Of a DNA stretch of 17,265 nucleotides, positions 16,000 to 17,265 are shown piece after piece. Position 1 is the first letter of the stretch. Every line of letters begins with the position of its first letter. Below the pieces are notes generated by a model, which saw only the letters and a program-made list of their open reading frames with translations, had not been told where the DNA came from and made no database searches. Position numbers and translations under genes: made by a program. The stretch covers positions 1 through 17,265 of the forward strand of contig JAUYMV010000122.1 of NCBI GenBank assembly GCA_030698645.1, given 5' to 3'. This stretch comes from Mesorhizobium sp. GTDB taxonomy: Bacteria; Pseudomonadota; Alphaproteobacteria; Rhizobiales; Rhizobiaceae.

Positions 16000-16042
16000 A
16001 AAACGACAACACCCGCCGGGGGAGGAGGTCCGGCGGGTGTCG
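16000..16042 (-). terminator. Intrinsic terminator ending the DUF1127 / small-RNA unit
   Basis: On the minus strand a perfect 11-base-pair stem (16030-16040 with 16009-16019) can be extended by CGAC/GTCG (16039-16042 with 16004-16007, using a three-base bulge). TTTT (16003-16000) then follows. The 10-base loop carries CCTCCTCCC, so the terminator is also the third hairpin of the small RNA. Confidence 0.8.
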
Positions 16043-16116
16043 CTGTATGTGGCCGTCATCCGGGAGGAGGTGGACTTCGGCCGTATCCCACGGGGTCTGG
16101 GAGGAGGATGACCCCG
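16004..16116 (-). ncRNA. 'Cuckoo' / CcsR-type small RNA: three hairpins with CCTCCTCCC loops
   Basis: On the minus strand, 18 bases after the DUF1127 stop, three hairpins follow in series. Hairpin 1 (16116-16091) has a perfect 7-base-pair stem CGGGGTC/GACCCCG. Hairpin 2 (16082-16051) has GGCCG/CGGCC and TCC/GGA stems around a 3x3 internal loop. Hairpin 3 (16040-16009) has an 11-base-pair stem. Each loop carries the same nine bases, CCTCCTCCC (16107-16099, 16070-16062, 16028-16020). This sequence mimics the anti-Shine-Dalgarno end of 16S rRNA. In Rhodobacter, CcsR RNAs with such loops are co-transcribed with and processed from a DUF1127 gene and act in oxidative and heat stress. Location, strand and motif all fit. 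How many mature RNAs arise cannot be told from sequence. Confidence 0.85.
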
Positions 16117-16134
16117 GCGAGATTTCGTGGTTCG

Positions 16135-16275
16135 TCAGACTGCCTTGCGGGCGACGAACGGAATATCGCTGCGGCTGATGCCAAGGTCGGTCAGTTCACG
16201 GTTCGACAGGCGGCTCAGCTCGTTCACGGTTTCCCGGTAGCGGCGCCAGTTGCGATAGTTGCGGATCAGTGTCAT
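16135..16275 (-). CDS. DUF1127 small protein (CcaF1-like)
   Basis: A 46-residue basic protein with the DUF1127 signature: MTLIRNYRNWRRYRETVNEL, then LSRLSNRELTDLGISRSDI (20-38), ending FVARKAV. Members of this family in alphaproteobacteria are small, Arg-rich RNA-binding or phosphate/carbon-metabolism-linked proteins. In Rhodobacter the homologue CcaF1 is co-transcribed with the CcsR small RNAs and affects their maturation. Here the same pairing is seen: the three CCTCCTCCC hairpins follow the stop directly. The start at 16275 is chosen because the family begins there. An upstream in-frame ATG at 16380 would lie above the probable promoter. The Shine-Dalgarno (GAGCACTGAA) is weak. Confidence 0.92.
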   Translation of the reverse strand: MTLIRNYRNWRRYRETVNELSRLSNRELTDLGISRSDIPFVARKAV

Positions 16276-16329
16276 TTCAGTGCTCGATTCGTCTTTGTTC
16301 GTTTTTCGTCTGTGTTCGTTACGAATGGA

Positions 16330-16358
16330 AGATAGGTATGCGTCCGGGGGTTGGAAAG
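16330..16358 (-). promoter_or_regulatory. Probable promoter of the DUF1127 / small-RNA unit
   Basis: On the minus strand CTTTCC (16358-16353) and CTATCT (16335-16330) are spaced by 17 bases. The extended -10, CCTATCT, fits the CYTATNT pattern I recall for heat-shock sigma factor RpoH in alphaproteobacteria, although the -35 lacks the TTG core. Either RpoH or the housekeeping sigma factor could use it. The leader would be about 48 bases. Confidence 0.5.
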
Positions 16359-16363
16359 CCCGT

Positions 16364-16380
16364 TTGTTGCATGGCAGCAA
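16364..16380. promoter_or_regulatory. Imperfect palindrome 1 (TTGTTGC-ATG-GCAGCAA)
   Basis: TTGTTGCATGGCAGCAA has 7-base arms matching at 6 positions. It starts 6 bases upstream of the DUF1127 -35 element, so a bound protein would touch RNA polymerase. The TGC-rich form resembles PhaR-type sites (polyhydroxybutyrate regulator); that likeness is from memory and weak. Confidence 0.4.
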
Positions 16381-16385
16381 TGCGG

Positions 16386-16402
16386 TTGGTGCATTGCAGC
16401 AT
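16386..16402. promoter_or_regulatory. Imperfect palindrome 2 (TTGGTGC-ATT-GCAGCAT)
   Basis: TTGGTGCATTGCAGCAT is identical to palindrome 1 at 14 of 17 positions and starts exactly 22 bases further from the DUF1127 promoter, about two helical turns, so both sites face the same side of the DNA. It lies between DUF1127 and the divergent DUF2157 gene and could affect either. Confidence 0.4.
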
Positions 16403-16519: not shown

Positions 16520-17265
16520 ATGGCCGGCTACGCGGACAAGATCAGGAAAGACGTGGCGCGCTGGTCGCAGGACGGGCTGTTGTCCGGCGACGTTGCGGCC
16601 GCGCTCCTGCGCGATATCGAAAGCCGCTACGGGCGCGGTTTCAGTTTCGGTTACGTGCTCGCCATGATGGCCGCGCTCTTGTTGTGCGCGGCGCTGCTGA
16701 TCACGGTCGCGGCCAATTGGGAGGTGATTCCTCGGCTCGGCCGCGTCGCCGCGCTGTTCGCGCTGATCGCCGGCGGCTATGTCGGCGGCGCGGTGCTCAA
16801 GCAGCGCGGGCATTCCGAATATGGCGAGGCGGCCTGGCTGATCGCCGCGGCGGCCTTCGGCGGCTCGATCGCACTGATCGGCCAGATGTACCATCTCTCC
16901 GGCGACGAGACGCAGGCGATCCTCGTCTGGTGCGGCGGCACGATGCTGGCCGCGGCGGGCCTGCGGTCGCCGCTGCTGACCGTCGCCGCGGTCGCGCTGG
17001 CGACGGTCTGGCTCGGCTACCCGGTGCTCCAGTTCAGCATCGACATCTCGCACGGCTTCCTGCTGCTGATTGTCGCCTTGTGGGCTCTCTCGATGTGGAG
17101 CGGCAGCGTGGCGGCGCGGCACATGATCCTGCTGGCGCTGATCTTCTATTGCATGCTGGTGTTCATCGATAACGGCGTGCTCGCGCTGATCGCGCTTGCG
17201 ATCGGCTCGGCCGGGGTGCTCGTGGCGGCCGCGCTGCGCGGCGATGCCGTCGAACGGCTGACAGG
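16520..17265 (+). CDS. DUF2157 membrane protein, N-terminal part (3' end outside window)
   Basis: At least 248 residues are encoded and the frame runs off the window. The N-terminus (MAGYADKIRKDVARWSQDGLLSGDVAAALLRDIESRYG, about 1-38) is the short charged helical region that defines DUF2157, with the typical WxxxGLLS pattern. A row of hydrophobic segments follows: YVLAMMAALLLCAALLITVAANW (46-68), LGRVAALFALIAGGYVGGAV, AAWLIAAAAFGGSIALIGQMYHL with the family's IGQ.YHL, and others. It is therefore a polytopic inner-membrane protein of unknown function. The start at 16520 has a G-rich stretch (16507-16513) 6 bases upstream. In many bacteria a GDYXXLXY-domain protein follows this family, but that lies beyond this window. 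Confidence 0.88.
   Translation, partial: MAGYADKIRKDVARWSQDGLLSGDVAAALLRDIESRYGRGFSFGYVLAMMAALLLCAALLITVAANWEVIPRLGRVAALFALIAGGYVGGAVLKQRGHSEYGEAAWLIAAAAFGGSIALIGQMYHLSGDETQAILVWCGGTMLAAAGLRSPLLTVAAVALATVWLGYPVLQFSIDISHGFLLLIVALWALSMWSGSVAARHMILLALIFYCMLVFIDNGVLALIALAIGSAGVLVAAALRGDAVERLT

Follow-up and report, generated by a model that had tools for sequence, protein, structure and literature searches.

A three-hairpin ar14-family anti-Shine-Dalgarno RNA behind a DUF1127 gene in Mesorhizobium sp., with a candidate LsrB/VtlR-type control site in front

The alpha-r14 RNAs (Smr14C2, SmelC397, NfeR1; Rfam ar14, RF02344) consist of three hairpins whose stems differ, with CCUCCUCCC unpaired in each. 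The three anti-Shine-Dalgarno (aSD) motifs redundantly silence target mRNAs in S. meliloti, and mRNA silencing through aSD motifs has been demonstrated for NfeR1 (PMC10746234; this and all other sources are cited from their accessible parts). The literature presents NfeR1 as an RNA that stands alone and has its own promoter, CTTAGAC-N17-CTATAT; LsrB, a VtlR homologue, activates it via TGCA-N6-GCAT at -72 to -57/-60 of PnfeR1 (PMC10746234). SmelA075 and SmelA099 of Sinorhizobium meliloti are described as having three and four hairpins, respectively, with CCUCCUCCC loops and variable stems, and two-hairpin Rhodobacter relatives are reported with them; a DUF1127 neighbour is unmentioned in the accessible part of that paper (PMC3927594). 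DUF1127 genes frequently lie next to CcsR-like RNAs in alphaproteobacteria, an arrangement named the CIN1 locus (PMC10253847). In the ccaF1-CcsR1-4 locus of Rhodobacter sphaeroides, a DUF1127 gene for 71 aa is followed on the same strand by four two-hairpin RNAs and a terminator-like end, with an RpoHI/RpoHII promoter and processing by RNase E/CcaF1 (PMC10253847, PMC8625941). Brucella VtlR, whose motif is CAATGCAGCCATGCA, activates three DUF1127 genes together with AbcR2 (PMC12595884). Agrobacterium atu1667 is likewise a DUF1127-type small gene behind a VtlR box, and its authors call it unknown whether it is a protein gene or a small regulatory RNA (PMC7486931). The accessible parts of these last two papers make no mention of an aSD RNA on the same transcript.

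The window, that is, the whole stretch of 17,265 nucleotides analysed here, has a DUF1127 gene directly followed on the minus strand by a three-hairpin RNA element:

16135..16275, minus strand: gene for a small arginine-rich DUF1127 protein, 46 aa (PF06568, 66.1 bits, cut-off 23.3)
16004..16126, minus strand: ar14-family (alpha-r14 / NfeR1-type) three-hairpin RNA (Rfam RF02344, E 7.5e-15)
16085..16123, minus strand: hairpin 1, CCUCCUCCC in the loop (16099-16107), -19.4 kcal/mol, 13 pairs, both-side change in 12 of 13 aligned pairs
16051..16082, minus strand: hairpin 2, CCUCCUCCC in the loop (16062-16070), -15.2 kcal/mol, 9 pairs, both-side change in all 9 aligned pairs
16006..16043, minus strand: hairpin 3, CCUCCUCCC in the loop (16020-16028), -28.3 kcal/mol, 14 pairs, then GUUUU

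The window contains exactly three copies of the motif CCTCCTCCC, all on the minus strand (16020-16028, 16062-16070 and 16099-16107), with start-to-start steps of 37 and 42 nt, and the first copy begins 27 nt past the stop codon of the DUF1127 gene, which is the best DUF1127 match of its genome. Folding of the minus strand places one copy in the loop of each of three separate hairpins, all with different stem sequences. Exact search, folding and the Pfam match thus agree with the preliminary description, which had drawn both this motif arrangement and the same-strand DUF1127 gene from the letters of the sequence. A chance origin of the three motif hairpins is ruled out: dinucleotide shuffles have a mean of 0.16 motifs, and none of 200 reaches three copies. 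Nor does any of the 200 shuffles used for folding equal the whole element, which folds at -63.6 kcal/mol (z -5.51); the hairpins taken one by one have z -2.19, -2.68 and -6.13.

Among the RNA families, the element fits ar14/NfeR1 best and not CcsR1. The ar14 model is matched over its full length (1-123 of 123) and scores 86.7 bits, well over its gathering score (58.8), and motif search and folding recover the three hairpins with unpaired CCUCCUCCC that characterize this family. The CcsR1 model (RF02791) reaches 31.8 bits, under its cut-off of 65.3, with a match that covers hairpins 1 and 2 only; membership in that family was dropped on this score. The broad call of a cuckoo/CcsR-like anti-SD RNA behind DUF1127 therefore stands, while the precise family is a different one, and the covariance-model search suggested with that call succeeds for ar14 and fails for CcsR1. 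Three hairpins had been thought an odd number, to be explained perhaps by a two-hairpin RNA plus a single one; since ar14 is defined by three hairpins, the count is normal, and since its match spans all three in one piece, the split was discarded as unneeded.

The stems covary. Twenty-six DUF1127-linked three-hairpin RNAs were aligned with MAFFT, using no structure model, and read against the fold of the window as the reference structure. Half of the rows (13) had been selected for the exact motif, and the other 13 comprise the window and covariance-model matches; L032, which has a shorter third loop, and the longer-distance four-motif loci were left out. Changes on both sides are found in 33 of the 38 stem pairs. 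Paired cells make up 81.8%, against 69.6% in shuffles and 36-47% with a slid structure, cells with both-side change number 147 (54.6 shuffled, 26-68 slid), and covariation scores 0.421, compared with 0.221 in shuffles and 0.09-0.16 when the structure is slid. In hairpin 3, 92.5% of cells are paired across the relatives. Motifs 1 and 2 show no variation in any of their nine columns across the 26 rows, partly by construction because of the 13 exact-motif rows, whereas motif 3 differs at a few positions; the stem covariation, unlike the motif invariance, is not built in by this choice of rows. The expectation of RNA-level selection, with loops kept and stems free to vary through compensatory changes, is thus borne out by the alignment. 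The loci named L041 to L160 come from a scan needing three exact motifs (at least 120 stretches), which biases both the conservation of the motif and the number of hairpins among them.

Hairpin 3 probably doubles as an intrinsic terminator, because ...GUUGUCGUUUU comes directly 3' of it. The terminator predicted at this end in the preliminary description is seen as the hairpin followed by GUUUU, although the terminator scan of the window does not list it: the minus-strand output lacks hairpin 3, and the two sites given are both on the plus strand. That scan accepts loops of 3-8 nt, and the 10-nt loop of hairpin 3 is above this limit. The terminator-like shape would also suit a role in which the hairpins merely end or protect the DUF1127 mRNA, or bind partners other than mRNA leaders, the loop motif being no mRNA seed. 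Next to no credence is given to such a role, against which stand the invariance of motifs 1 and 2 in the 26 relatives (13 of them exact-motif picks) while the stems vary, and the redundant silencing by the S. meliloti motifs described above (PMC10746234).

The gap between the DUF1127 stop codon and the ar14 match is only 8 nt, so a promoter specific to the RNA would need to sit within the DUF1127 coding region. Promoter-like features are found in front of the gene instead:

16380..16393, minus strand: TGCA-N6-GCAT dyad, the LsrB motif of the nfeR1 promoter, exact match
16368..16382, minus strand: VtlR/LsrB-type LysR box CATTGCTGCCATGCA, 2/15 mismatches to the VtlR motif, starting 107 nt before the ATG
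16353..16358, minus strand: putative -35-like hexamer CTTTCC, 17-nt spacer, likened to the published nfeR1 promoter
16330..16335, minus strand: -10-like hexamer CTATCT, inside the conserved block of the 16-locus alignment

Box and dyad come first, followed by CTTTCC-N17-CTATCT and then by the DUF1127 gene, and this promoter block is conserved in the alignment of 16 linked loci. With the start site assumed at 16323, 7 nt past the -10, the dyad lies at -70 to -57, which is the distance published for nfeR1. The putative promoter thus carries both the published VtlR binding motif, with its two mismatches, and the exact LsrB dyad, as is characteristic of the LsrB/VtlR regulon. Judged from its sequence, it looks more like the LsrB-controlled nfeR1 promoter than like the RpoHI/RpoHII promoter of ccaF1-CcsR1-4. 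The locus shares with alpha-r14/NfeR1 the three hairpins, the CCUCCUCCC loops, the divergent stems, the upstream dyad and the presence of several genomic copies, and differs in that box and hexamers precede DUF1127 and the RNA lies in the predicted 3' UTR.

This difference bears on a reading in which a promoter within the DUF1127 coding region drives the ar14 RNA independently of that gene, just as NfeR1 has a promoter of its own (PMC10746234). The own genome has three ar14 matches above cut-off, namely the copy in the window and copies on C545 and C763, and the latter two, neither of which is preceded by a DUF1127 gene within 600 nt, are consistent with independence. However, the LysR box sits upstream of DUF1127, the exact nfeR1 promoter consensus is absent from the window and thus not directly upstream of the RNA, and a scan for E. 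coli-type consensus promoters scored nothing at the locus, the -10-like CTATCT included. An NfeR1-type promoter next to the RNA marks the NfeR1 homologues rather than the ar14 family as a whole. Independence from DUF1127 is considered very unlikely.

The box was surveyed within 200 nt before the DUF1127 start, at up to three mismatches, in linked loci and in control stretches; five clusters near contig ends (L043, L057, L108, L112, L147) were dropped, and L045 and L095 were assigned to Rhodobacterales by judgement, their titles naming no order. Among the matches listed, 23 of 42 linked Rhizobiales loci have the box, against 8/1760 control stretches; the genus group contributes 6 of 7 (control 0/92) and other Rhizobiales 17 of 35 (control 8/1668). 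In the remaining 19 of the 42 listed loci the box is weak or missing. All eight linked loci listed that have 200-322 nt between the DUF1127 stop and a four-motif array are without it, and L017, the best ar14 match of a genus relative, belongs to this long-distance class and has no box. Stand-alone Rhizobiales loci among the matches listed have the box in 7/70 at up to three mismatches (control 8/1668) and in 27/70 at up to four (control 55/1668). In Brucella rhizosphaerae (L116, minus strand), four CCUCCUCCC motifs start 27 nt past the stop of a DUF1127 gene whose start is preceded, at 112 nt, by a VtlR box with two mismatches.

The exact 16-mer box is found in the own genome (G000) at this locus only, with one-mismatch copies on C129 and C336, and at up to three mismatches that genome has 62 sites against 11 for the reversed control. 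When up to one mismatch is allowed, 25 genomes yield 19 sites, spread over 13 of them, and none for the reversed pattern. Twelve of the 19 lie no more than 500 nt, in either direction, from a DUF1127 gene or an aSD array: 8 are close to both DUF1127 and aSD motifs, 1 to aSD motifs alone and 3 to a DUF1127-like gene alone. The other 7 have neither. TGCA-N6-GCAT alone is not rare, with 2 in the window against 0.71 expected and at least 2 in 35/200 shuffles; for the 15-mer box at up to three mismatches in the window, 24/200 shuffles give at least two matches.

The survey also weighs on the possibility that the same RNA is driven, as in Rhodobacter, from a promoter of the heat-shock sigma factor RpoH, with the DUF1127 protein and RNase E maturing it, the locus being a CcsR operon with three hairpins rather than eight. 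In close relatives the -35 is CTTTGAA, which we take to be not far from an RpoH-type -35 and which could also fit RpoH. The gene order is identical to that of ccaF1-CcsR1-4, and a short DUF1127 gene adjoins a CcsR-like aSD RNA on the same strand, as in CIN1 loci. To this extent the earlier comparison with the Rhodobacter locus holds, but it does not extend to the RNA family, given the sub-threshold CcsR1 match, or to the promoter, which has a LysR-type box. Where the Rhodobacter locus has four two-hairpin RNAs, the window has a single RNA of three hairpins. Since the box is found in 23/42 Rhizobiales but in only 2/20 Rhodobacterales-group linked loci among the matches listed (control for the latter, 1/385), an RpoH-driven operon is thought unlikely.

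A candidate for the regulator is encoded elsewhere in the own genome. On one strand of C714, the end of a trxB-like gene (pyridine-nucleotide-disulphide oxidoreductase), a gene for a LysR protein of 298 aa and an ar15/AbcR RNA (46 bits, cut-off 40) follow each other in this order. The LysR gene is a likely LsrB/VtlR orthologue, because this gene order matches the conserved trxB-vtlR-abcR order that has been published (PMC7486931).

The preferred reading, held with fair confidence, is that DUF1127 and the ar14 RNA are transcribed together under LsrB/VtlR control and that the 3' end of this transcript silences mRNAs. The analysis shows the family, the covarying structure, the order of the genes and the conserved box, from which we go on to infer co-transcription, the regulator, processing, the targets and any part that DUF1127 has in RNA maturation. 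The control site in front suggests, from its sequence, that one redox-sensing regulator may switch on both DUF1127 and the RNA. The two would constitute an operon in which the RNA forms the 3' UTR. An LsrB/VtlR-type LysR regulator, probably the one on C714, would bind the box ~105 nt before the DUF1127 start and activate the unit in response to redox or nutrient stress, and the transcript would run from this promoter through DUF1127 and stop at hairpin 3. The RNA would act while still joined to the mRNA or once cut off downstream of the DUF1127 stop codon, its three CCUCCUCCC loops, partly redundant, pairing with purine-rich Shine-Dalgarno sites of several mRNAs and blocking their translation. 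By analogy, these could be mRNAs of transporter and nitrogen-control genes. The DUF1127 protein may possibly aid RNA maturation, as reported for CcaF1 in Rhodobacter. This role is not easily transferred, however, since in Agrobacterium DUF1127 proteins work via the sensor kinase PhoR, and Salmonella YjiS showed no RNA binding, according to the accessible part of PMC12501420. S. meliloti duf1127 is reported to be subject to attenuation by an upstream ORF (PMC12218461).

The ar14 kind of RNA and its pairing with DUF1127 are already known, and as a family member the locus is ordinary; what is new is a modest regulatory reading. It joins two published threads, LsrB to NfeR1 and VtlR to DUF1127 genes, by placing both products on one predicted transcript. 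VtlR/LsrB, DUF1127 and anti-Shine-Dalgarno were not found together in the print record within reach, which lacks some key papers, and no priority is claimed. A broader proposal, whose chances are judged to be even, is that in many Rhizobiales one LsrB/VtlR-controlled transcript bears both the DUF1127 protein and an ar14 RNA, the regulator driving stand-alone and protein-coupled copies alike. If so, phenotypes credited to VtlR-activated DUF1127 genes could come partly from the RNA in the 3' UTR. Deleting such genes or the regulator may also remove the anti-SD RNA, a testable confounder.

In 41 genomes (the own genome and 40 relatives), an ar14 match at E 0.01 or better is present in 33 and above cut-off in 25, and none is found in 14 control genomes. 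Three further matches in the own genome, on C200, C416 and C560, score 18-21 bits, below cut-off. The strongly reduced 1.1-Mb genome G012, of the same family, retains a match (L034) at 61.7 bits, above cut-off. Among the matches listed, Rhodobacterales loci L118, L134, L122 and L087 have clusters of 9-12 motifs behind DUF1127 with steps of ~37-52 nt, and these arrays reach up to 14 motifs per merged cluster.

Other genes near such boxes may be recorded. On C129 of the own genome (L163 1236-1516, minus strand), another DUF1127-like gene, of 55 aa, scores 20.8 bits, which is under the Pfam cut-off; its one-mismatch box lies 116 nt before the start, and no aSD motif occurs within 500 nt. On C336 (2596-2611, minus strand; L164 1501-1516), the one-mismatch VtlR-type box lies 113 nt before a gene for an E1 dehydrogenase component (PF00676, 67.1 bits), pdhA-like by eye. 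In the window itself, a gene for a predicted DUF2157 membrane protein (16520-17265, plus strand; PF09925, 115.7 bits) is divergent from the predicted DUF1127 operon and continues past the contig end.
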